Assembly (NCBI RefSeq): GCF_900184685.1
Contig: NZ_FXXL01000006.1
Location: forward strand, 1,116,001 to 1,180,000
Direction of reading: 5' to 3'
Source: Butyricimonas sp. Marseille-P3923
Lineage (GTDB): Bacteria > Bacteroidota > Bacteroidia > Bacteroidales > Marinifilaceae
DNA length: 64,000 nt
Positions 27,621-60,646 of this stretch are shown here, in pieces. The translations under genes were made by a program, and so were the position numbers. The notes under the pieces are model-generated. The model ran no database searches. It was not told where the DNA came from and saw only the letters and a list, made by a program, of their open reading frames with translations. Position 1 is the first letter of the stretch. Each line of letters begins with the position of its first letter.

Positions 27621-27669
27621 GGATAACTTCTATTGTAATCCCGGTGAAGATAGGGAACAAATTCCTTTT

Positions 27670-27699
27670 AAACTCCTTTCAAACTCCTTTCAAACTCGT
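27670..27699 (+). repeat. tandem 11-bp repeat in the rpsL upstream region
   Basis: AAACTCCTTTC occurs twice in a row (27670-27691) followed by a partial third unit; CAAACTC here can also pair with GAGTTTG near 27719-27725. The 27621-27895 stretch holds no gene; besides this repeat it contains the rpsL promoter. Confidence 0.75.
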
Positions 27700-27821
27700 T
27701 CGGGAAGGTTTTTGAAAAGAGTTTGATGTGAAAGGGAAAGGAAAATGCGAGTTTATTGGTTTATAAGTACGGCTAACCTTCTCACTGTCTTGCCCTTTTT
27801 TTGAAAAAAAAGATAGAATTG

Positions 27822-50763: not shown

Positions 50764-51417
50764 ATGAAAAAGTATTTAGCTGAAATGATCGGAACGATGG
50801 TTTTGGTGCTTATGGGATGTGGAAGTGCGGTGATTGCCGGAAGTGAGATCGGTTTCTTGGGTATTGCGTTTGCATTTGGTTTGTCCGTGTTGGCAATGGT
50901 TTACACGATTGGTAGTATTTCCGGTTGCCATATCAATCCGGCGATTACGTTGGGTGTGCTCTTGGCGGGACGAATGAGTGGCAAAGATGCCGGTATGTAT
51001 ATGTTGTTTCAAGTCATCGGTGCCCTTATCGGTTCGGCGATTCTTTACGTGATTTCTTCCGGAATGGGATTGGAAGGAACAGGTGCGAACATGTACGGGG
51101 AAGGTAATGCGGTGCCTGCTTTCGTGGCGGAATTTGTCTTTACCTTTATCTTTATTCTGGTTGTACTGGGGTCTACCAGTGCCAATGCACCTGCCGGGTT
51201 TGCCGGGCTGGCTATCGGTCTTGCGTTGGTGTTGATTCATATTGTTTGTATCCCCGTGACGGGAACATCCGTGAATCCGGCAAGAAGTATCGCTCCGGCG
51301 TTGTTCGAGGGTGGTAAGGCGTTGAGCCAATTGTGGCTGTTTATCGTGGCTCCTTTCTTGGGTGCTGTTTGCGCTGCCGGGGTATGGAAATATTTCGAGT
51401 GCCAGAAATGTAAATAA
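50764..51417 (+). CDS. aqpZ: aquaporin Z
   Basis: Inner-membrane water channel of 217 aa. Both half-helix NPA boxes are present ('SGCHINPAITLGVLLAGRMS' and 'TGTSVNPARSIAPALFEGGK'). The filter residues fit the water-selective type: His in 'LVLIHIVC', Thr two residues before the second box region, and Arg directly after NPA. Six membrane helices can be traced. It is monocistronic between two terminators. Confidence 0.95.
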   Translation: MKKYLAEMIGTMVLVLMGCGSAVIAGSEIGFLGIAFAFGLSVLAMVYTIGSISGCHINPAITLGVLLAGRMSGKDAGMYMLFQVIGALIGSAILYVISSGMGLEGTGANMYGEGNAVPAFVAEFVFTFIFILVVLGSTSANAPAGFAGLAIGLALVLIHIVCIPVTGTSVNPARSIAPALFEGGKALSQLWLFIVAPFLGAVCAAGVWKYFECQKCK

Positions 51418-51438
51418 GATCAATATGTGATTTGATAC

Positions 51439-51480
51439 GAAAAGTTTTTAGGGCTATAACCCTAAAAACTTTTCTTTTTT
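51439..51480 (+). terminator. terminator of aqpZ
   Basis: GAAAAGTTTTTAGGG (51439-51453) and CCCTAAAAACTTTTC (51460-51474) pair perfectly over 15 bp, followed by TTTTTT. Its loop region, GGGCTATAACCC, is echoed in a second small hairpin right after it (TTAGGGGTATAACCCTAA, 51490-51507). Confidence 0.95.
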
Positions 51481-51508
51481 AGATACTTTTTAGGGGTATA
51501 ACCCTAAA

Positions 51509-51670
51509 TCAGTTTCTCCTGTCCCATTGTCGTTTAAGCCAAGCGACGATGATGGAACTTAGTACACCGCCCAGCAGGCTGACCGTTCCCGCGATCAGAC
51601 TGTCTGCTATTTGCGAGAGAAAGGTGTTGATGCTGAGGGTGAAGAACATGCCGGTAAGAAAATAATTCAT
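51509..51670 (-). CDS. small hydrophobic protein
   Basis: 53-aa protein, 'MNYFLTGMFFTLSINTFLSQ' at the start and 'SSIIVAWLKRQWDRRN' at the end, with one membrane helix from about 22 to 44. The ATG at 51670 is chosen; a longer reading to 51757 would translate a 7-bp-period repeat and is rejected. It follows the DUF6266 gene on the same strand and is probably the last gene of the holin-amidase unit. Small proteins of similar size are common after amidase genes in Bacteroidota accessory regions. The basic tail suggests a cytosolic C-terminus. I cannot name its family. Confidence 0.6.
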   Translation of the reverse strand: MNYFLTGMFFTLSINTFLSQIADSLIAGTVSLLGGVLSSIIVAWLKRQWDRRN

Positions 51671-51753
51671 ACAATTGAAAATTGAAAATGAAAAATTCCG
51701 GCCGCCCGAGAGCGATGCCTGTGCGGCTGGAATCTGAAATCTAAAATCGTAAA
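51671..51753. repeat. 7-bp-period repeat and hairpin
   Basis: ATTGAAA units (51674-51690), then ATTCCGGCCGC and GCGGCTGGAAT pair around a short loop (51695-51733), then AAATCTA/AAATCGT units. It lies between the DUF6266 gene and the small protein gene. Confidence 0.75.
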
Positions 51754-52380
51754 TCACTGAATCAATAAGCTGTCGGAAGCGCTTCTACCGTTTTTCGTGG
51801 TGGCGAAGCAATAGACATGGACTTTTGAGGCATCCCAGTCTTCCGGGAGGGCGTAGCTGGTGCTGCCGCTTTCTCCCCGGTCACGGAGTGCGACCAGTTT
51901 GGTGCGGTTCATGGTTTCCTCGAGCAAGACGGCGTACACTTTGTCATTCGGGAGGGCAAAACCGTCTTCGCTTTCTTGTGTTTCTTGCATGAACGAATAC
52001 TTCTTCGTCTCTTCGGTGTACTCTGCGCTTACTTTGGGAGGGTAGAGCATACCGTTTCCCAGCAATAAATGCTCGTAGTCGATCGTGGTGTTATACTTTT
52101 CGTCAACCACGATAGCGCCCATGTTGGCGGCGGTGAAGGCATTCGAGGGTGAGCCTTTGCCGATTCCCGCGAATCCTTTCCGGATGACGGGCAGCGCTCT
52201 CCGGACGATTGCCGTCAAGGCTTTCATTCGGGCTCGCTGTGCCAGTATTTCCGGGGTTTTGACATCTTTGCGGGCGAAGATTTTCGCCTTTGCAATGTTT
52301 TGTTTGTTCACGTAACATGTGGTTACGTTACCTACTGATTTTCTGATTTTTCCGAGTAAATAGGAATTGAATTTTGCCAT
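51754..52380 (-). CDS. DUF6266 family protein
   Basis: Protein of 208 aa without signal peptide. It starts with the DUF6266 pattern 'MAKFNSYLLGKIRKSVGNVT', then 'KTPEILAQRARMKALTAIVR' and 'ALPVIRKGFAGIGKGSPSNA'. The C-terminal half is beta-rich ('KVYAVLLEETMNRTKLVALR'). The function is unknown in the family, which occurs in Bacteroidota accessory regions, often in several copies. A second member lies at 54859. It is in line with the amidase and holin genes upstream on the minus strand, separated by a repeat and a hairpin. Confidence 0.8.
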   Translation of the reverse strand: MAKFNSYLLGKIRKSVGNVTTCYVNKQNIAKAKIFARKDVKTPEILAQRARMKALTAIVRRALPVIRKGFAGIGKGSPSNAFTAANMGAIVVDEKYNTTIDYEHLLLGNGMLYPPKVSAEYTEETKKYSFMQETQESEDGFALPNDKVYAVLLEETMNRTKLVALRDRGESGSTSYALPEDWDASKVHVYCFATTKNGRSASDSLLIQ

Positions 52381-52389
52381 AACTTAATA

Positions 52390-52420
52390 ATTGAAAGTTG
52401 AAAATTGAAAATTGAAAATG
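52390..52420. repeat. 7-bp-period repeat upstream of DUF6266 gene
   Basis: TTGAAAG and TTGAAAA units, four in a row, directly before the gene at 52380. A near-identical array is found at 60570-60601 and 63303-63330 inside surface genes. Confidence 0.85.
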
Positions 52421-52433
52421 AATTTTGCACCCT

Positions 52434-52476
52434 TTGCATGGATCCGATACATCGGATGCAAATTTTTTAATATTGA
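52434..52476. other. hairpin between amidase and DUF6266 genes
   Basis: TTTGCAT, ATCCGA and TCGGAT, ATGCAAA (about 52434-52466) form a stem, followed on the plus strand by TTTTTTAAT. Its T-run faces the plus strand, where no gene reads into it, so its use is unclear; on the minus strand it would be a plain hairpin in the spacer. Confidence 0.5.
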
Positions 52477-52488
52477 ACCTGTAACTTG

Positions 52489-53079
52489 TTACTCGCTCCT
52501 GCCGAGTAACAAACTCTCCAACGTGATCTCCGGGAGTGCGGGACCCGGATCGAGTTTACGGGAGGTGATGTCCGAGTGGTGCAGGATGTGGTAGATGGGG
52601 TACGCGGAGATTAGCAGGCGACATACTTGGCGCAGGGTTTCAACTTGTGCGTCGGTGTATTTGTGCCAGTACGTGAGTTTGTCGTTCGCATAGTCCGCGT
52701 AGACCTCGGAAGGCATTACTTCCACCCCACATTCGGCGAAAAAACGTTCGCCTTTTCTTTGCAGTTTTCCGAGGTTGTCGAGTTCAATGCCGATAGAGAA
52801 ATGATTGAATTCGGCACGTCCCCGGTAGTAGCTGCGCCCGGCGTGCCATGCCTCCACGTTGAAGGGCACGAGTTGGATGAGCTCCCCGTCACGGGCGATC
52901 ACGAGGTGGGCGGATGCTCCCATGTCGGGGCGGCAAAGATAAAGTGCTGATGATAGGGCGTTTCTGCCTGCCGTGTAGTGTAAGACGATGGTGTCCGGGT
53001 CTTTCAGCAATCTGGTGTTTTTCGAGCAAGTCAAGTGAACTGCATGGCAGTCTACAAGACGATGGTTTAGTATGTCCAC
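52489..53079 (-). CDS. N-acetylmuramoyl-L-alanine amidase (PGRP/amidase_2 fold)
   Basis: Peptidoglycan hydrolase of 196 aa that cuts the bond between muramic acid and the stem peptide. Zinc-site features are 'TIVLHYTAG' (first His) and 'ILHHSDITSRKLDPGPALP' (second His and a third ligand, Asp in place of the usual Cys). The substrate groove shows 'DMGASAHLVIARDGELIQLV' and 'EAWHAGRSYYRG'. No signal peptide is present, so it would need the holin or another route to reach the wall, like a phage endolysin. It lies between the holin gene and the DUF6266 gene. Confidence 0.93.
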   Translation of the reverse strand: MDILNHRLVDCHAVHLTCSKNTRLLKDPDTIVLHYTAGRNALSSALYLCRPDMGASAHLVIARDGELIQLVPFNVEAWHAGRSYYRGRAEFNHFSIGIELDNLGKLQRKGERFFAECGVEVMPSEVYADYANDKLTYWHKYTDAQVETLRQVCRLLISAYPIYHILHHSDITSRKLDPGPALPEITLESLLLGRSE

Positions 53080-53184
53080 GGTAGAAATTTAGAATTTAAA
53101 ATGAATTATTCTGTGATTGTCGATTCAATGATTTTGTGATTGCAAGGGAACGTTGTTGGTGTAACCTCAATCGTAAATCATAAA

Positions 53185-53562
53185 TTAAAACCGGCGTCGT
53201 TTCCGGGTGATGGTTTGTAAAATTTTTTCTCCGCCGCGTCCGATGACATAACCGCCAAGACCGATTTCGAGCAAGTCCCAGAAACGGGAGGTGTCAGCGA
53301 GGGTAGGCAGGCTGACGAATGTGCCCGTGAGGATGATGGTCGCGAATGTCAGCATCACCAAGGGGCGCCACGAGCGTTGCAGCCAATTGCCTCGGGCTTC
53401 TTCCCGGAGTACCGAACTTTGTTCTTCTGCCAGTTTTTCGACGTGTGTCTGGAGTTTTTCAGTCAGTTCCGCTTCCAGTTGTCTTTTTTCTCTCGCGGGG
53501 AGAGTCAGGCGGTCTACTGTTTCGCCAATCGCGTTGATAAGTGTTGTTAAAGGTTTCATCAT
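53185..53562 (-). CDS. holin of the 3-TM superfamily (GTA_holin_3TM-like)
   Basis: Inner-membrane protein of 125 aa. After a charged helical N-terminus ('ETVDRLTLPAREKRQLEAEL', coiled) come two strong hydrophobic segments, 'PLVMLTFATIILTGTFVSLP' and 'DLLEIGLGGYVIGRGGEKIL', and a basic tail, 'RKRRRF'. The pattern 'WRPLVML...GLGGYVIGRGGEKI' is typical of these holins. ATG at 53562 (or 53559) is chosen because it lies 22 bp after a good -7 box; the longer reading crosses that promoter. It is the first gene of a unit with the amidase and DUF6266. Confidence 0.85.
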   Translation of the reverse strand: MMKPLTTLINAIGETVDRLTLPAREKRQLEAELTEKLQTHVEKLAEEQSSVLREEARGNWLQRSWRPLVMLTFATIILTGTFVSLPTLADTSRFWDLLEIGLGGYVIGRGGEKILQTITRKRRRF

Positions 53563-53583
53563 ATCTTTGTTTTTTTGTCGGGA

Positions 53584-53632
53584 CAAAGATATAGCCATGA
53601 TTTTCCTTTCCCGTTACGGGCGATATGTGGAT
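53584..53632 (-). promoter_or_regulatory. promoter A, with shared 16-bp motif, for the holin unit
   Basis: Read on the minus strand: ATCCACATATCGCCCG (53632 down to 53617), 25 bp, then TATCTTTG (53591 down to 53584), an exact -7 box, 22 bp before the holin ATG. There is no TTTG at -33; the motif lies where an activator would bind. The same motif at the same distance occurs at 53991-54039 and 55734-55782. Confidence 0.7.
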
Positions 53633-53695
53633 GTTGGGGGATATGGACAGTGTAGATTATCATACTAAAGGCATCGAATTCGATGCCCTTAAAAT

Positions 53696-53968
53696 TTATT
53701 CCACTAACAGTCTTTCGATATCTTTCAACCGGTAGTAGGATTTTTTGCCTACTTTCCGGGTGGGGATGTTGTATTTTTTGACGTGTTTGTAAAGGGTGTT
53801 GGGTTGGATGTTCAGTATTTTGCACACTTCCGTCGAGTCCACCCATTCGGAGTGTAGCCGGGCGGGGATTTTCTCGATGGTGAGGATGAGTTTGGCGATT
53901 TTGGCAGTCAGGAGCGATACTGCTTTGACGAGAGCGACGATGGCTTCGATTAAATTGATGTTTTTCAT
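53696..53968 (-). CDS. helix-turn-helix protein (HTH_17 type)
   Basis: Small DNA-binding protein of 90 aa. An N-terminal amphipathic helix (1-33, 'NLIEAIVALVKAVSLLTAKI') may mediate dimer formation. The C-terminal part, 'DSTEVCKILNIQPNTLYKHV' and 'IPTRKVGKKSYYRLKDIERL', is the excisionase-like winged helix of the HTH_17 group. ATG at 53968 is set by a promoter 23 bp upstream; longer readings would cross the promoter and a repeat. It has its own copy of the shared promoter motif, so it may regulate itself and the two neighbouring units (inference). Confidence 0.85.
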   Translation of the reverse strand: MKNINLIEAIVALVKAVSLLTAKIAKLILTIEKIPARLHSEWVDSTEVCKILNIQPNTLYKHVKKYNIPTRKVGKKSYYRLKDIERLLVE

Positions 53969-53990
53969 GATATTTATTTTTTTGTTATTA

Positions 53991-54039
53991 TAAAAATAGT
54001 CCGTTGCCACCAGTGAAGGTTCACGGGCGGTACGTGGAT
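53991..54039 (-). promoter_or_regulatory. promoter B, with shared 16-bp motif, for the HTH gene
   Basis: On the minus strand: ATCCACGTACCGCCCG (54039 down to 54024), 25 bp, TATTTTTA (53998 down to 53991), then 23 bp to the ATG. Motif-to-box spacing is identical to promoters A and C. Confidence 0.65.
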
Positions 54040-54135
54040 TTTGGTATTTTTCGGAAGGGGATGTGTGGGGTGAAGGACAAAAAAGTCCGCCATTCCCGGG
54101 GGAGGGCGGACATGAAAGGGGTGGAACATCGGGTG

Positions 54136-54834
54136 TTATTGTCGGTTGCAATCTTTTTGTTCGATATGGTCGAGGTACATTCGTTTTATTTTGTCCAGAA
54201 AGGTGGTTGGGTTCGGTCGACTTTTGACGTGACTCATGAGGGTGTCGTAGTCTTTGTTCGGGGGGAGGTTCCACGCGCGGCAGAAGTAGTGGATGAAGTC
54301 TTTCTTTCGCCATTCTTCACGCGTGCATCCGGCGATGCCCGTGTCGAAGAGGAATGATAGCATCTCGGCAGCTTCCGATTCGGTGACGTTTAGGCATAGC
54401 GGCGAGGGAGGGACGGGAGGCAGCCCGTTCGTCCACCCGTGTAAACGGAGGTAGGCATCCTGTACCACCCGCAGGTAGTCGTCCGCGCGGAAGCGGGTGG
54501 GAGTGTCCAGTTGTTCCGGGGGCAGGGGAACACCGTCTTTCGTCACGCGCAGGAAACGGTGGGTGTAATGCCCGTTGCGGAAGGTGATGGTGCCTTTCAT
54601 GTCGAGCAGGTGTTGCTGTACCATGGAGAGTATCATCTTGTTGTTGGCGGCGGCGAGCACGGTTTGGCAGATGGTGCGGGTTACGATGGCTTCTTTCTTC
54701 AGCAATAGCTTGTAGAGTTCTCCCGGCGATGTGGTGCCGTTGAAACGGAGTTCCGCGGGGGTGTTTCCCGATAGTTCGATGTCGGCGGTCGCGAGAGTGG
54801 TGATATAGTCGGTGATGTATTCTTCTTCGTTCAT
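54136..54834 (-). CDS. RteC-like protein
   Basis: Cytosolic protein of 232 aa. The C-terminal third, 'TESEAAEMLSFLFDTGIAGC' to 'SRPNPTTFLDKIKRMYLDHI', resembles the end of RteC, the excision regulator of Bacteroides conjugative transposons, in order and spacing: a helix for counting, an aromatic-rich helix, then R-x-NPTxFLDxLK. The N-terminal 130 residues are helical and not clearly related to RteC. It starts 24 bp after the DUF6266 stop, so the two are one unit. No mobilisation or integrase gene is in the window to support a transposon. The assignment is from pattern memory. Confidence 0.55.
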   Translation of the reverse strand: MNEEEYITDYITTLATADIELSGNTPAELRFNGTTSPGELYKLLLKKEAIVTRTICQTVLAAANNKMILSMVQQHLLDMKGTITFRNGHYTHRFLRVTKDGVPLPPEQLDTPTRFRADDYLRVVQDAYLRLHGWTNGLPPVPPSPLCLNVTESEAAEMLSFLFDTGIAGCTREEWRKKDFIHYFCRAWNLPPNKDYDTLMSHVKSRPNPTTFLDKIKRMYLDHIEQKDCNRQ

Positions 54835-54858
54835 GGGTGTTCGTATTTTGTTTTGATA

Positions 54859-55503
54859 TTAATCGTTCAATTTGATGTAGGTGTCCGGGGTGTAAGCGTC
54901 GCCCTCGCGTGAAATGAAATAACAGTAGAGATGCGTCGCGATGCCGGGAGTGTTTTCCGTGGTGAAGGTGGCTCGCTCGTCGTCGCGGCATACGGGTAGC
55001 GGATTGACGAACCGGATGGTGAACGACCGGTTCTCGTTCAGGTATGCCACCGCGAGGCGGTCGGTGTTCCGCGGCGATTGTTTTCCGGCGTGGTTTTCCC
55101 ACGTGAGGGTGACCGTGCCGTCGGTGTTGCGGGTGGCAATCATGTTGTCGGCAGTCTTGAGTCCGCTCGCCGGGCAGAGCGTGAGGCGCGAGAAGTCGCT
55201 GATTGTGCCGTCGGGCAGGAATACGCCCATGTTGGTTTTCAAGTAGAGCGAGTAGCCGGATGACGCGGCGGCTTTGTCGGCGGCGGTTCGCCACGCGTCC
55301 CGTAGCGGGGTTTCCCGCAGGCGTTGGTAGAAGCGCACGCAGGCGGTGAGCCGGTTCCGGTTGGCTTGTTGCTCCGGCGTGTTGGCGTCGCGGTATTCGG
55401 CAGGTGCCGTGCGGATGCGGTACTGTTGTTTCACTTTGTAAATGATAAAATTTCCGATTTTTCCCCGTAGGGTTTCCAGTAAACTCGATTCGAATGTTGC
55501 CAT
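54859..55503 (-). CDS. DUF6266 family protein, second copy
   Basis: Protein of 214 aa, paralogous to 51754. It has the same N-terminal plan, 'MATFESSLLETLRGKIGNFI', then 'NTPEQQANRNRLTACVRFYQ', 'AWRTAADKAAASSGYSLYLK' and a beta-rich C-terminal half ('TDRLAVAYLNENRSFTIRFV'). There is no signal peptide. Codon use is much richer in G and C than in the copy at 51754. Its transcript starts at promoter C and carries a leader of about 220 nt. Confidence 0.78.
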   Translation of the reverse strand: MATFESSLLETLRGKIGNFIIYKVKQQYRIRTAPAEYRDANTPEQQANRNRLTACVRFYQRLRETPLRDAWRTAADKAAASSGYSLYLKTNMGVFLPDGTISDFSRLTLCPASGLKTADNMIATRNTDGTVTLTWENHAGKQSPRNTDRLAVAYLNENRSFTIRFVNPLPVCRDDERATFTTENTPGIATHLYCYFISREGDAYTPDTYIKLND

Positions 55504-55727
55504 AGTTCGTGATTTTAAATGAATATTAATCCGTCAGTTAGCGTGGAAATAGGCGGGAGAAAGACCGGAACGCGAGGGGCAACCCCGCTGTATCCCCGGT
55601 GTCAGTCCGTGTTCCCCGCGTTGGCGGGTGGTCGTGTCACGTTTGCAACAAGGCGGTGAATCGAAGTTAATCGCTTATCACCCCTTTTTCTCTCCTTTAT
55701 TTCCCCGGCTTCTGTCCGGTGGTTTTG
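55504..55727 (-). other. long structured leader of the second DUF6266 unit
   Basis: Between promoter C and the ATG at 55503 lie about 220 nt without a credible gene. On the minus strand AACGCGGGGAAC can pair with GTTGCCCCTCGCGTT (imperfect) around a GC-rich core, and GGTGATAAGCGATTAAC... with GATTCACC forms a second stem nearer the promoter. This degree of pairing suggests a regulatory RNA leader. I do not recognise a known riboswitch. Confidence 0.4.
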
Positions 55728-55733
55728 TCGGGA

Positions 55734-55782
55734 TAAAGGTACGCCGTGCCCCGCGGGGCGCCGTTGCGGGTGATACGTGGAT
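55734..55782 (-). promoter_or_regulatory. promoter C, with shared 16-bp motif, for the second DUF6266 unit
   Basis: On the minus strand: ATCCACGTATCACCCG (55782 down to 55767), 25 bp, TACCTTTA (55741 down to 55734), followed by TCCCGACAAAA, the same 11 bases that follow the -7 box in promoter A. Confidence 0.65.
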
Positions 55783-55788
55783 ATTGTT

Positions 55789-55845
55789 TACCTTCGGTAA
55801 GTTGCGGGTTGCATTTGCCTTCGGCAAGTTACAGGTTACAAGTTG
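55789..55845. repeat. TTCGGCAAGTTGCAGG-type repeats
   Basis: Two units here: TACCTTCGGTAAGTTGCGGG and TGCCTTCGGCAAGTTACAGG, each a small hairpin (TGCCTTCGGCA) followed by 7-bp-period GTTGCAG/GTTACAA units. Further copies are at 58167-58213, 60622-60680 and 60790-60816. Confidence 0.8.
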
Positions 55846-55850
55846 GAGAG

Positions 55851-55900
55851 GAAACTGTCCCCACCCCGGGGTAAATACCCGGAATTTCGGGACAGTTTCG
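55851..55900 (-). terminator. hairpin after the fimbrillin-like operon
   Basis: GAAACTGTCCC (55851-55861) pairs with GGGACAGTTTC (55889-55899) over 11 bp, with an inner CCCCGGGG-type stem, 29 bp after the stop of the gene at 55929. On the minus strand the 3' side is TTTCCTCTCC, a weak T-tract. Confidence 0.65.
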
Positions 55901-55928
55901 TTTTCCGCTTGTAATTTGTTGCGGGTGG

Positions 55929-58148
55929 TTAATTCACCGTTGACGTGTTTCTTCCCAATTGGATAAGGCGATAGGTTTTTTCTATCGGTTTACCGTTGTA
56001 CGTGGTGACGGTGAATTCCGTTTCGCGCGGACCGGCTTCGCCAGACGGGTAAACCGGGAAGGGTACTTTATACTCGTGTCCCCAGAAGTTTCCCGAAAAA
56101 TATAAACTTCCGGAGAGTGGTTTTGCCCACCAGTCGCAATTTTCTCCGAATTGCACGATAATGGGTTTGACGGGCTCCACTGTGCTGCCGGCTTGGCTAG
56201 TCGCAATACCGCGGACATCGAAGATGACATCGTCGGCAGTCAGACCGCTACCCGCGATAATGATGGTGCTTAGGGTTTCGTCGAACTTTATCTTTCCTTG
56301 GTTCACGAGGTCGTTGTTCAGCACTATCTCGTGAGTGGGGCTGAGGATTGTTTTGTCAACGGTTCCGCTTTGGATAATGGTGACTTCTCTGGTTGCGAGT
56401 CCACTTCCCCCCGGTATCCATCTTTGCGTCACGACTACTTGGCGCTCGGGTTTCCCTATGTTGTCGGTGATACTGGTGCCGAGGAGATCTCCCATTTTTT
56501 TATTGAAGAGCCACGTGCATCCTTCCGGGATAACGAGGTCTGATGCGCGCATTATTGCAGCGTCAATACCGAACGGGGGCAGGTGGAATACAGGCGAGTC
56601 GCTCATGGTATTCGGGTCCCATATGCTACCTAAGAAGGACTTGTCCAGGTGTGTCATGTCGGTATATTCCTTGTACACGAGGTACTCGTTGATAACCTGT
56701 TTTTTGTTCGCGGCATCGTACGTGATGATTGACAAGTTTACCGTGAGGGGACGTGTTCTTTCGTCGGCGGTTTTGTCGGTAGCTTGAAGCTGGTAGGTCA
56801 TGGGGGTGGTGGCGGTGTTCACCACTTTCAGCCAGTTGCAATCGTCCGGCAGCACGATGCCGATGGGCTTGTCGTTGTCCGTTCCGGTGATGGTGGCGAA
56901 AGGTGTACCCTCGGCGTGGGGGAGGTTGTGGACGTAAAGGTTTTTGTTGTTGTCGCCAAAGAGGACGGCGGCACTCCTTTCTTCCGCGAGGGTAGCGCCG
57001 GAGTTGAGTCGCGCCGCGATGTCGTCGGTGTCGACGGTTTCGCCGTACACCCAGTCGGCGATGGTGATGTACGCGGTGAGGTTACCCTCGGTGTTGATGA
57101 TGTTCACCACGTAGCGGGTGTTGGGTTGCATCCCTTTGGTGGTGGCGGTCATCGGGTCGCCGGCGAATTTGGCGGTGAGGGTGAGTTCGGTGGTACCGAG
57201 TTTTCCCTTGATAGCCACGGTGGGGTATTCCCCGGCGGCGTCGTTGGCGTTCATCGGCAGGGCGTAGAGAGCGGCGTTGATGACTTCGGCGTTCGTCACG
57301 GTTTTCTCCGCGAAGGCAACGGTTTGATTCGTTCCGGCTGCTGCGATGTCTTTGAACAGGGTGGCGTTCTTCGCACCCGTGAGGGTGACGTCGGTGACGG
57401 TGAAGCCCGTGGCTACCGGGTTATTGATGTCGATACGTGCCACGCGGCGGGTGAGTTCGGCGCTGATGCCCTCGGCGAGCTTGGCGGCGTCATACTCGTT
57501 GTTGGTCTTGAGCGTTCCGTCCGTGTCGTATGCCGACCACTGTGCCGTGGATTGCATCACGAGCGGGGTGGCGAAGTTGGTGGCGTTGTCGGAGAGGGCT
57601 GTCTCGAGGACGTTCCATGCCTTCACGGCGCTGAACGCGGTGGCGCCGCCACCCGTGCTCCGGTCGTTGCCTACGGTGATGTCCGGGTTGGCGACTGCGG
57701 TGCGGGTTTCGCCGTCATTTGCCACGAGGATAAAGGCACGCTTGCGGTCGGCGTTTTTCACCACGCCGAACGATGCCTTGTAGCCGTCGCCGTCGGGAGT
57801 GAGCACGATGTCGTTCGTGCTGCCTTGTGCCACGTACTTGTACACGCGCTCGAGGGTGTAGTTGTCGACTCCGGTTACCGCTGCCGACGTGTTTTGGGCG
57901 TCGAGGTCGACGAAGCAGTAGATGTCGAGCTTGTCAATCTTCACTTCTCCGGAGAGGGTGACATTGTCACCCGCCGCACGGGCGAGGCTTTTGCCGTTTA
58001 TCCCGGCAATGTTCATCTGCACGGCGGTTTCGCCGTCTTTCAAGACTAAGTCTTGATTGTCTTCTTGTGACGCGATTTCATCACTACATGCTGTCGCACT
58101 CAACGCGAGCGCTACTACAGCCAATCGAAAAAATTGTTTGATATTCAT
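55929..58148 (-). CDS. fimbrillin-like surface lipoprotein with BACON-like tail
   Basis: Lipoprotein of 739 aa. The start at 58148 (MNIKQFFRLAVVALAL) gives a normal signal peptide with lipobox 'ALSATACSDEIASQ'; the longer reading translates intergenic repeats. The N-terminal half has the fimbrillin plan: 'VKIDKLDIYCFVDLDAQNTS', 'YTLERVYKYVAQGSTNDIVL', 'LTRRVARIDINNPVATGFTV' and 'NTRYVVNIINTEGNLTAYIT'. The C-terminal half carries BACON-like beta domains, each ending with a Val-x-Gln pattern ('REVTIIQSGT', 'KTYRLIQLGR'). It is the last of four tandem paralogues. Likely role: shaft, tip or anchor of a surface fimbria, or an adhesin. Confidence 0.75.
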   Translation of the reverse strand: MNIKQFFRLAVVALALSATACSDEIASQEDNQDLVLKDGETAVQMNIAGINGKSLARAAGDNVTLSGEVKIDKLDIYCFVDLDAQNTSAAVTGVDNYTLERVYKYVAQGSTNDIVLTPDGDGYKASFGVVKNADRKRAFILVANDGETRTAVANPDITVGNDRSTGGGATAFSAVKAWNVLETALSDNATNFATPLVMQSTAQWSAYDTDGTLKTNNEYDAAKLAEGISAELTRRVARIDINNPVATGFTVTDVTLTGAKNATLFKDIAAAGTNQTVAFAEKTVTNAEVINAALYALPMNANDAAGEYPTVAIKGKLGTTELTLTAKFAGDPMTATTKGMQPNTRYVVNIINTEGNLTAYITIADWVYGETVDTDDIAARLNSGATLAEERSAAVLFGDNNKNLYVHNLPHAEGTPFATITGTDNDKPIGIVLPDDCNWLKVVNTATTPMTYQLQATDKTADERTRPLTVNLSIITYDAANKKQVINEYLVYKEYTDMTHLDKSFLGSIWDPNTMSDSPVFHLPPFGIDAAIMRASDLVIPEGCTWLFNKKMGDLLGTSITDNIGKPERQVVVTQRWIPGGSGLATREVTIIQSGTVDKTILSPTHEIVLNNDLVNQGKIKFDETLSTIIIAGSGLTADDVIFDVRGIATSQAGSTVEPVKPIIVQFGENCDWWAKPLSGSLYFSGNFWGHEYKVPFPVYPSGEAGPRETEFTVTTYNGKPIEKTYRLIQLGRNTSTVN

Positions 58149-58270
58149 AGTTATTTGTTTTAAATTGCCTTCGGCAAGTTGCAGGTTACAGGTTTGCAAG
58201 TTGCAAGTTGTTCCTCTGCTTGCTGCCGGGAGGCGTTGTTAATTTTCAATTTTCAACTTTCAATTTTCAA
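58149..58270. repeat. repeat-filled spacer between surface genes
   Basis: It holds a TGCCTTCGGCAAGTTGCAGG unit (58167-58186), GTTGCAAGTTGCAAGTTG, then TTTTCAA units of 7 bp (58240-58270). No promoter motif of the A/B/C type is seen, so the surface genes are probably read through from the right. Confidence 0.8.
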
Positions 58271-60646
58271 TTATTCTGTTATTTTGGTTTGTGTTTGTTT
58301 TATATAGTATGTTTTTGTTTTACCTCCCCGCGTGTGGACGGTGAATGAGCCGACGCGGTCGGGGATTTTCTGGTCGATGGCGGGTGGAAGGTATGCTTGG
58401 GGAAACACGATGATTTGGTTATCACTCGTGTACGTTACGCGTACCCAGTCGTCGTTCGAGGTGACGAAGGCGGGGATGCCGTTCGTCCCGACGACGGAGA
58501 GGCAGGTATTGTTAGCCTCGATGTCTAGGTCGTCGAGGTATGAGTTTAAAGCATGTTCCAGTCTTTGTTTTAGTGCCTCATTATCGGGATTCGCGAGATA
58601 TTGGAGATATAAGTTATAATATTCTGAATGGTAGTTCCCGTGATTCATGTAGATGGTGTCGCCCTCGAGGCGTAGTTCTTTCGCGGGGAGCAGGCGTAGT
58701 TCCAGCGCGTGACCGGTGGCGAGGAGGGCGTCGTTGGGCGTGGCGTCCTGTATGACCGTCCAGCGATTGGTGACGACGGGGCTTGCCGGGTCGCCGTTCT
58801 CGCGGGTACGGACATGGAGGTATGCCGTGCGTTCTTCTCCGTTGTTGTCGGAATTGATGGTGTACATGAGGTAAGGGACGTTTAAGCCGTTATTATTGAT
58901 GTCTATCCACGGGTAGTCCTCCTCCGGGTAGGTTTGGGGAAATGCTAATGATATGTTGTTGTCCGGTAGAAATTCGAGGTTAATGTAAGGCAGGGGCGGC
59001 AGATGGATTACGCGGTTCGCGTTGTCCACGCTCGCGAGGGCGGTAAACGGTTTTATATTGATAATAAATGTTGCGGCGGCGTGAGTAGGATTGTAGTATT
59101 CTTGGTAGACGGTGTATTCCGTGTATTTGTTGTAGCCGCCGGCATTCCGTGTGACGATGGTGATGACTGCCTTGCGGGGACGTTTTAGGTAGTTCGTTTG
59201 GGGTCTGCTTATAGCCCGCGATGCGGAGGATATATCGTCAGGGGCGTACAGACCGAGCAGGCAGGTGTAGGTGTTGTCGGCATCGGTTTTCTTGTCGGCG
59301 ACGTATATCCACGTGCAGTCGTCGGGGATGATGATGCCGACGGGGTTCGCGTCACCCGCGGCACCCCGGATTTCGAGGAATCCGCCGCCGGAGGTGAACA
59401 AATCCGTGGTGGCGTAGGTGATGCGGTTGCCGTCGATGGTGGTAGAGTCCCCGTGGGGTATCTGCCCCGCGTAGAGGGTGGAGGTCGTGGCGAGGTGATA
59501 CTCGCTGTTGAGCGTGCCGGCGATGTCGGGGGTGTCGATGGTGCCGCCGTCGTTCCACGGGGCGACGGTGATGTCCAGGCGCAGGTTGCTGCCGTCGTTG
59601 CGCACGGCAATCGTGTAGCGGGTATTGGGGAGTATTTTAGCCGTGATGCCGAGCGTGACGGGGTTGCCCGCGTAGGTGCCGGAGAGGGTAATTTCGGCGT
59701 TGTCACTATCGCCGGATACCGGATAGAGATATATGGCGGCGGGTATGGCGGCGGCGTTAGAAAGTGTTATTTCCGGGTAGTCTTGTTGCATATAACCGCT
59801 GAAATCATCGATGAACAGGGGCACGCACGGGTTGCCCGCGGCTTTTATGCCCGTGACGGTGAATCCGGTGGTGACGGGGTTGCTGATATCGATGCGCGCC
59901 ACACGGCGTATCATGCGGGCGGAGATACCTTTGGCAAGGTCTTCCCGCGTGAAGACGGGGTCGTCGATGTATTCGCCTGCCCCGGTAATGACGGTGTGGG
60001 TGGCACGTGCGCTCATGAGCAGCGGGCAGGTGAGATTCTTGCTGTTGGGGAGGGTTGCCGAGGCTTCGGCGAGGGCGGCGGTGTAGGTGGTTGCCGAAGT
60101 GCGGTCGGCACCGCTGACGGGGACAGCGGTGTAGGTGACACTACCCGCGGCGGTTTCATTGGCTTTGAGCAGGAAGGCTCGCTCGCGGGTGTCGTCCTTG
60201 GGGACACCGATGGCGGCACGGTAGCCGTCGGCGTCGGCGACGAGGGTCATGTCGTTGGCGTCGCCGCCGCTGGCGTAGGTGTACTCGCGTTCGAGGGTGT
60301 AGTCGTCGAGCGTGGCGGCGTCGGTGCCGCTCGCGGTGAGGTTGACGAAGCAGAGGACGGTGAGTTGTTGGATAACATTCTCGCCAGCCGACGCTATGTT
60401 GTCGTCACCGGCACGGGAGATGTCCGTGGCGGCGTTTGCCGCCGTGCTGCCCCCGTGGGAAAGTCCCGGCAGGGCGATTTCCACGAGCCGCTCGTTGGCG
60501 GCAAGGTGCGGCGTGTCGGGCTGGTCGACGGTTTCGTCGGAACAAGCTATTAGCGCGAGCGCTAATAGCAATTGAAAATTGAAAATTGAAAGTTGAAAAT
60601 GAGGGGTTCGCCAAAGGGTTCGCCTGCGGCGAGTTGCAGGTTGCAT
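58271..60646 (-). CDS. fimbrillin-like surface lipoprotein with BACON-like tail
   Basis: Lipoprotein of 791 aa, paralogue of the genes at 55929 and 61021. The lipobox is 'LLLALALIACSDETVDQ'. The ATG at 60646 begins inside a repeat unit; residues 1-25 ('MQPATRRRRTLWRTPHFQLS...') are encoded by repeats, and the only other possible start (TTG near 60570) leaves too short a signal peptide. Shared blocks: 'YTLEREYTYASGGDANDMTL', 'MIRRVARIDISNPVTTGFTV', 'NTRYTIAVRNDGSNLRLDIT' and 'NPVGIIIPDDCTWIYVADKK'. BACON-like segments end with 'RWTVIQDATP' and 'KTYYIKQTQT'. It is GC-rich. The start is less certain than the rest. Confidence 0.72.
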   Translation of the reverse strand: MQPATRRRRTLWRTPHFQLSIFNFQLLLALALIACSDETVDQPDTPHLAANERLVEIALPGLSHGGSTAANAATDISRAGDDNIASAGENVIQQLTVLCFVNLTASGTDAATLDDYTLEREYTYASGGDANDMTLVADADGYRAAIGVPKDDTRERAFLLKANETAAGSVTYTAVPVSGADRTSATTYTAALAEASATLPNSKNLTCPLLMSARATHTVITGAGEYIDDPVFTREDLAKGISARMIRRVARIDISNPVTTGFTVTGIKAAGNPCVPLFIDDFSGYMQQDYPEITLSNAAAIPAAIYLYPVSGDSDNAEITLSGTYAGNPVTLGITAKILPNTRYTIAVRNDGSNLRLDITVAPWNDGGTIDTPDIAGTLNSEYHLATTSTLYAGQIPHGDSTTIDGNRITYATTDLFTSGGGFLEIRGAAGDANPVGIIIPDDCTWIYVADKKTDADNTYTCLLGLYAPDDISSASRAISRPQTNYLKRPRKAVITIVTRNAGGYNKYTEYTVYQEYYNPTHAAATFIINIKPFTALASVDNANRVIHLPPLPYINLEFLPDNNISLAFPQTYPEEDYPWIDINNNGLNVPYLMYTINSDNNGEERTAYLHVRTRENGDPASPVVTNRWTVIQDATPNDALLATGHALELRLLPAKELRLEGDTIYMNHGNYHSEYYNLYLQYLANPDNEALKQRLEHALNSYLDDLDIEANNTCLSVVGTNGIPAFVTSNDDWVRVTYTSDNQIIVFPQAYLPPAIDQKIPDRVGSFTVHTRGGKTKTYYIKQTQTKITE
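60546..60569. repeat. 24-bp palindrome in the signal-peptide coding region
   Basis: GCTATTAGCGC and GCGCTAATAGC, perfect 11-bp arms with a GA centre. It encodes LLALALIA of the signal peptide. The same 24 bases occur at 63275-63298 in the same position of the next paralogue. Confidence 0.92.
60570..60601. repeat. 7-bp-period repeat inside the start of a surface gene
   Basis: ATTGAAA, ATTGAAA, ATTGAAA, GTTGAAA units. On the minus strand they encode 'FQLSIFNFQ', the first part of the signal peptide of the gene at 58271. The array is the same as the intergenic one at 52390. Confidence 0.9.

Follow-up and report, generated by a model that had tools for sequence, protein, structure and literature searches.

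A 16-base site at fixed distance from the -7 boxes of three promoters in a lysis-like cassette of a Bacteroidales chromosome

Three promoters (P1, P2, and P3) of a lysis-like gene cassette share the site ATCCACRTAYCRCCCG, which is found on the minus strand with 0 mismatches in all three and whose first base lies 41 bases before the first base of a -7 box (Table 1). All coordinates are positions within the window, i.e., the 64,000-nucleotide stretch of a Bacteroidales chromosome (5.3-Mb genome) that was analysed. Support for a cis-acting promoter element with constant spacing is good. According to our preferred reading, to which we assign a probability of roughly 0.6, the site would be the operator of an activator encoded by the cassette itself, driving three units from primary-sigma boxes.

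Table 1. Sites, -7 boxes, and genes of the cassette (window coordinates), and two probable further promoters (contig coordinates).
Feature	Sequence	Position	Strand	Remarks
Site P1	ATCCACATATCGCCCG	53617..53632	-	
Site P2	ATCCACGTACCGCCCG	54024..54039	-	
Site P3	ATCCACGTATCACCCG	55767..55782	-	about -53 to -38
-7 box of P1	TATCTTTG	53584..53591	-	TAnnTTTR ending in G
-7 box of P2	TATTTTTA	53991..53998	-	TAnnTTTR ending in A
-7 box of P3	TACCTTTA	55734..55741	-	TAnnTTTR ending in A
P4 (probable)		C1:1241382-1241430		intergenic; different contig from P1-P3, about 1.24 Mb
P5 (probable)		C1:1653328-1653376		intergenic; different contig from P1-P3, about 1.65 Mb
DUF6266 protein a, 214 aa		54859..55503	-	Pfam PF19781, E 8.8e-8; first gene of P3 unit
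RteC-like protein, 232 aa		54136..54834	-	C-terminal domain, hhalign; second gene of P3 unit
HTH_17 / excisionase-like protein, 90 aa		53696..53968	-	Pfam PF12728, E 6.3e-9; sole gene of P2 unit
3TM holin, 124 aa		53185..53559	-	Pfam PF11351, E 2.6e-8; PHROG 3427 holin, E 6.5e-21; alternative start ATG at 53562
N-acetylmuramoyl-L-alanine amidase, endolysin-like		52489..53079	-	Pfam PF01510, E 6e-28; PHROG amidase/endolysin families
DUF6266 protein b, 208 aa		51754..52380	-	Pfam PF19781, E 1.8e-6
Small cassette protein, 82 aa or shorter (ATG near 51671)		51509..51757	-	phmmer

On a scale in which the -7 box is taken as -12 to -5 (PMC9723704), the site spans about -53 to -38 with its centre near -45, and 25 bases separate its end from the box. 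The primary-sigma (sigma-ABfr) promoter of Bacteroidetes, as given in PMC7366714, has TAnnTTTG at -7 and TTTG at -33. P1-P3 resemble it in their TAnnTTTR boxes and, at P1 and P2, in short A-rich leaders before the first gene, but they have no TTTG at -33 and carry a 16-base site that ends upstream of the position expected for that element. TTTG is absent within 30 bases upstream of the boxes of P1-P3 as well as of P4 and P5. Each of the three intergenic regions contains exactly one TAnnTTTR on the minus strand, which is the box at +41. The sequence-only reading of this DNA is thus borne out with regard to the exact 16-mers, their 41-base spacing, the missing -33 boxes, and the sequence common to two promoters after the box (TCCCGACAAAA, downstream of boxes 1 and 3 only). 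The leader from the P3 box to the start of the DUF6266 gene is about 226 nt long. Neither a palindrome nor a clean direct repeat is visible by eye within the motif, which counts against the operator reading. Directly upstream of the P1 site, GTCCATATCCCCCAAC (53633-53648) resembles by eye the motif start TCCAYRT, and may be a second half-copy of the motif or a chance likeness.

One site precedes each of the three units, which jointly make up a single lysis-like cassette that looks phage-derived. The P3 unit consists of DUF6266a and the 232-aa protein, the P2 unit of the HTH_17 gene alone, and the P1 unit of the holin, probably together with the amidase, DUF6266b, and the small protein; the within-unit gaps (24, 105, and 108 nt) contain no TAnnTTTR on the coding strand. 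The holin adjoins the endolysin/amidase gene, as in phage holin-endolysin cassettes, where a 3TM holin is likewise followed by an amidase (PF11351, PF01510, and PHROG lysis families). In contrast to these, the present cassette is chromosomal, exists in many copies per genome, and includes two DUF6266 genes and, mostly, regulator genes. Two large lipoprotein-like genes occupy 55929-60646 of the window, the second of them weakly matching the Mfa1-type fimbria entry NF038041 (E 2.9e-6, below cut-off).

In a box-anchored alignment 13 of 16 columns are invariant across the three sites. When the upstream sequence was dinucleotide-shuffled with the box fixed (n = 20,000), the best result was 8 columns, reached in 5 shuffles, and among 300 unanchored shuffles the best was 12 and none reached 13. 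A blind repeat search of 53100-56100 reports a motif block (31 nt) and a box block (29 nt) as the first two direct-repeat families, the copies of both being spaced 407 and 1743. The window's three pairs also stand out in an equal-offset repeat test applied to each of 41 cassette loci, in which 11 other pairs of 3,765 reach 13/16; by eye these are A-rich tracts or long repeats, and none reads as a common promoter site. The exact 16-mer has 3 occurrences genome-wide, all at P1-P3. At up to 3 mismatches, 5 matches fall in the window versus 2.5 expected. What sets the motif apart is thus its exactness and its spacing, and not the loose count. An invertible promoter was rejected, as no inverted-repeat pair flanks P1-P3 in 53100-56100. 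No known structured RNA was reported at E 0.5 in 51000-58500, and no tRNA in the window.

According to the preferred reading, ATCCAYRTAYNNCCCG would be a single, non-palindromic predicted site (about -53 to -38) for a sequence-specific transcription activator. The putative activator would replace the absent -33 TTTG element, and primary-sigma RNA polymerase would then start from the downstream TAnnTTTR box. Three separately transcribed units would be driven in this way, namely DUF6266 with the RteC-like gene, HTH_17, and holin-amidase-DUF6266-small protein. Most likely the cassette itself encodes the activator, as either the RteC-like or the HTH_17 protein, which would then also boost its own expression; because the three sites cover the whole cassette, such a self-reinforcing activator is the simplest source. 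The motif, its spacing and chance level, the gene content, and the homologies to RteC and HTH proteins are observed, whereas binding, activation by binding, and the identity of the binder are inferred.

The RteC-like label given earlier to the 232-aa protein holds over its C-terminal 90 residues. Comparison of 8 homologues with 12 RteC-family proteins by hhalign yields a probability of 97.3 and E 1.9e-11 for residues 138-230, i.e., homology to the RteC family (PF09357) over about 90 residues of the C-terminal domain. The window protein, however, has no Pfam match at E up to 10, and likeness to full-length RteC was not found there; 2 of 7 homologues scanned show RteC, both below cut-off (E 0.0027 for L128 and 0.09 for L108). 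A fold search of the model in PDB gives nothing at E 0.001 (best 1.2). A profile of the RteC C-terminal domain, built from 12 RteC-family and 9 cassette proteins, finds ORFs in 26 of the 43 loci searched, window included, in a search that is partly circular because the 9 cassette proteins are part of the profile. The profile likeness makes this protein at least equal to the HTH_17 protein as a candidate regulator. Like CTnDOT, which also has small excisionase-like HTH genes near its RteC-family gene, the window places an RteC-family gene near such an HTH gene, and positive control is supposed in both. In CTnDOT, RteC controls excision and transfer genes (PMC1976400). The window protein, in contrast, matches RteC by profile only over the C-terminal 90 or so residues, the proposed targets are holin and amidase, the cassette shows no genes for conjugation or excision, and no inverted-repeat operator is seen.

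As for the HTH_17 protein, which had been named as the candidate regulator, it matches PHROG excisionase families and its model (pLDDT 84.6) combines a long N-terminal helix with a MerR-like winged helix. The nearest folds are those of BldC and the excisionase RdfS (E 0.03-0.06); a PDB sequence search gives nothing at E 0.1. The predicted fold of the protein matches these small MerR-like DNA-binding proteins (Foldseek probability 0.99-1.00, TM by target 0.57-0.77), but identity is 16-22%, E values are only 0.03 and higher, the long N-terminal helix is extra, and no recombinase partner is seen. Both candidates, according to these comparisons, belong to DNA-binding families. An HTH_17 protein is present in 11 of the 41 cassette loci, and that of the window shares 20-32% identity with the 11 others compared (23-34% in a second alignment); the site and this HTH_17 protein are both peculiar to the window cassette. 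Among other loci, L094 and L112 have HTHs 86% identical and, by eye, different upstream regions, whereas L095 and L112 have HTHs 47% identical and promoters that look alike. That promoter type does not track HTH likeness in these three argues against a simple rule by which each HTH binds its own cassette promoter. Regulation of the site by the HTH_17 protein is possible.

Holin matches number 61 and are spread over 18 of the 56 family genomes; this genome has 11, one of them a 34-residue fragment, and the 5 congeners have 3-6 each. The best matches reach 32-34% identity in 3 phage records and 41-44% in two IMG/VR contigs; 15 plasmid records match the holin, at best with 34% identity. Of the 61 matches, 41 loci were examined, i.e., the window and 40 others (L091-L130). 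The recurring gene order is DUF6266 - [RteC-like] - [HTH] - holin - amidase - DUF6266 - small protein; in some variants the amidase precedes the first DUF6266 gene. DUF6266b has a match in 40 of 41 loci and the small protein has phmmer matches in 21, window included, while an RteC-like or HTH_17 gene is found in 33. Some RteC-like ORFs stand apart from their cassette, by about 4.5 kb in L101 and by 1-2 kb in several other cases. Many copies have a holin start that abuts the preceding gene or overlaps with it. Because other copies are thus often packed as one operon, the window copy, in three units, is unusual.

In none of the other 40 loci is ATCCAYRTAYYDCCCG followed by a box at +39 to +43 when up to 3 mismatches are allowed (best 4). 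L103 and L108, from two congeners and with the nearest layout, seem to have no TTTG at -33, and their likeness to the motif is by eye little, if any. Other elements were seen by eye upstream of several copies. L100 (upstream of 4201) and L117-L119 have an inverted repeat, e.g., CTACACGTG-TGCTT-CACGTGTAG, upstream of a TAnTTTTG box, which is possibly another control site, and L094, L105, L110, L111, and L114 have direct repeats of about 20-22 bp before the cassette promoter, unlike the window motif. Separately, an intergenic repeat with units CAAAGACGTTT...CAAAGACGTTC... occurs in the window (27652-27716), in L149 (13255-13355), and in L150 (11666-11813), and also in L105, L110-L112, L114, L094, and L095. 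Units within one copy tend to one variant (GACG, GTCC, or CTCC), as if homogenised within the copy, and some copies adjoin an IS3-type insertion.

In the 5.3-Mb genome the 16-mer has 39 matches at up to 2 mismatches versus 7 for the reversed control, and allowing up to 3 mismatches in the motif-gap-box pattern adds P4, P5, and L148 (reversed control 1), of which L148 lies inside an 870-codon frame. P4 and P5, first found at 3 mismatches, are probable further sites of the same kind. A loosened 49-base pattern, ATCCAYRTAYNNCCCG-N25-TANNTTTR, has five exact matches in this genome (P1-P5), which are not independent proof because the pattern was drawn after P4 and P5 had been seen, and none with 1 or 2 mismatches. 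At exactly 3 mismatches there are 12 more versus 2 in the control. Nine of the 12 sit in open frames of at least 140 codons; the remaining three are one with a broken box, one that is hairpin-like by eye, and L185 (C1:2352610-2352658), where ATCTATGTATTTGTCG is followed by TATTTTTG at +41 outside long reading frames, a weak candidate for a sixth site. The motif is not scattered at random spacing: of the 8 exact matches of the loosened 16-mer alone, 5 are followed by the box at +41, and the other 3 lie inside frames of 736, 447, and 343 codons and have no box. Of its 32 one-mismatch matches 24 were examined, and the box is at +41 in 0/24; of the one-mismatch matches that read ATCCACGTACCACACG, the three checked (L004-L006) lie in frames of 819-847 codons, again without a box at +41. 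A genome-wide regulon beyond the five sites was rejected, as loose matches exceed the control but none convinces.

Among relatives, the loosened 49-mer at up to 2 mismatches is absent from 5 congeners and has 8 matches in the other 50 family genomes versus 5 for the control across all 56. In about 85,000 species genomes, an index that may omit the window's own genome, there are 5 single matches in different organisms, versus about 7 expected by chance (a rough hand estimate with uniform base composition), i.e., the matches in other species are chance-like. A phage promoter was rejected, viral contigs having a single, chance-like motif match. Of the regulon proposed by the sequence-only reading, what stands is the same site at the functional position before three units here and probably two elsewhere, with the box at +41 in all; conservation in the five congeners does not stand. 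The regulon as a whole is weakly supported and tiny, with three sites in one 2.2-kb locus and two probable ones elsewhere.

P4 and P5 bear on the reading, unlikely in our judgement, that a regulator encoded elsewhere in the genome has P1-P5 as its small species-specific regulon. The five exact loosened matches, two of them on another contig, would fit it, as would the 24/26 bases at which P4 and P5 agree, a form that even with up to 3 mismatches allowed has no further copy in six genomes of the genus. It counts against the preferred reading that both lie outside any cassette, with no RteC-like ORF nearby according to the C-terminal profile, and that an XRE-like HTH ORF (L150 16096-16503, our own reading) is found about 2.7 kb from P5. 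However, P4 points towards an IS3-type transposase, and P5 enters the back of another copy of that IS about 35 nt beyond its box, so that with the insertion downstream neither drives an obvious target gene; furthermore, the 3-mismatch level at which they were found gives 12 matches in the other 55 genomes, versus 4 in the reversed control. P5 adjoins ychF, and the closest congener, the one read here (YchF 99% identical), has other sequence there. The insertion sequence as carrier of the motif was rejected, since P1-P3 have no IS3-type copies nearby and since in the repeat copies L194 and L195, the latter less clearly insertion-adjacent, every site has at least 2 mismatches.

Still less probable is a repressor operator, or one of both functions, through which a cassette protein would hold the lysis gene set off. 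Lysis genes are commonly kept silent, and HTH_17 / excisionase-like proteins are often repressors, which suits that role. Activation is, however, a better fit to the absent -33 element and to a site lying upstream of the core promoter, and an operator for repression would not require one exact distance to the -7 box.

An upstream element of an alternative (ECF) sigma factor, the other possibility raised in the sequence-only reading besides an activator site, is very improbable. The -33 box is indeed missing in all five promoters, but all five have the standard primary-sigma TAnnTTTR as their downstream box, whereas the alternative-sigma motifs described for Flavobacterium psychrophilum in PMC9723704 deviate from TAnnTTTG in the -7 region. 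In addition, the motif ends 25 bases before the box, a gap exceeding the distance between -33 and -7 elements. With its centre near -45 and an ordinary -7 box downstream, the site fits an activator operator better, and of that earlier pair of possibilities the fixed-spacing, activator-like cis element is the one retained. It is equally hard to credit that the three promoters are functionless copies of one by shared descent: box blocks are 66-72% alike over 29 nt and P1 and P3 share TCCCGACAAAA, but recent copies should be alike throughout and old ones nowhere. With 6, 6, and 10 of 25 bases identical the spacers are close to random, yet the sites agree at 14/16, so that site and spacing look selected.

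The site looks like a real but small control element, ordinary in kind and new in sequence. Neither the site sequence, the split cassette, nor repeated lysis sets were found in the open-licence PubMed Central literature, and no mention of DUF6266 or of the three 16-mers was found there. More tentatively, the preferred reading may be extended to a species-private pair of a cassette-coded activator (RteC-like and/or HTH_17) and a 16-base operator known from nowhere else, in which a domesticated, many-copy cassette would in one copy have had its operon broken into three units, each with an operator, and the split operon would act as a self-reinforcing lysis switch. The different upstream elements of other copies look as if each cassette had its own control code. 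If the site works as proposed, it would offer a switch, open to testing, that controls a chromosomal holin-amidase set of which the genus has several copies per genome, and whose conceivable purposes include lysis, vesicle or particle release, or something else. If true, it would also show an RteC-type protein at work outside conjugative transposons.
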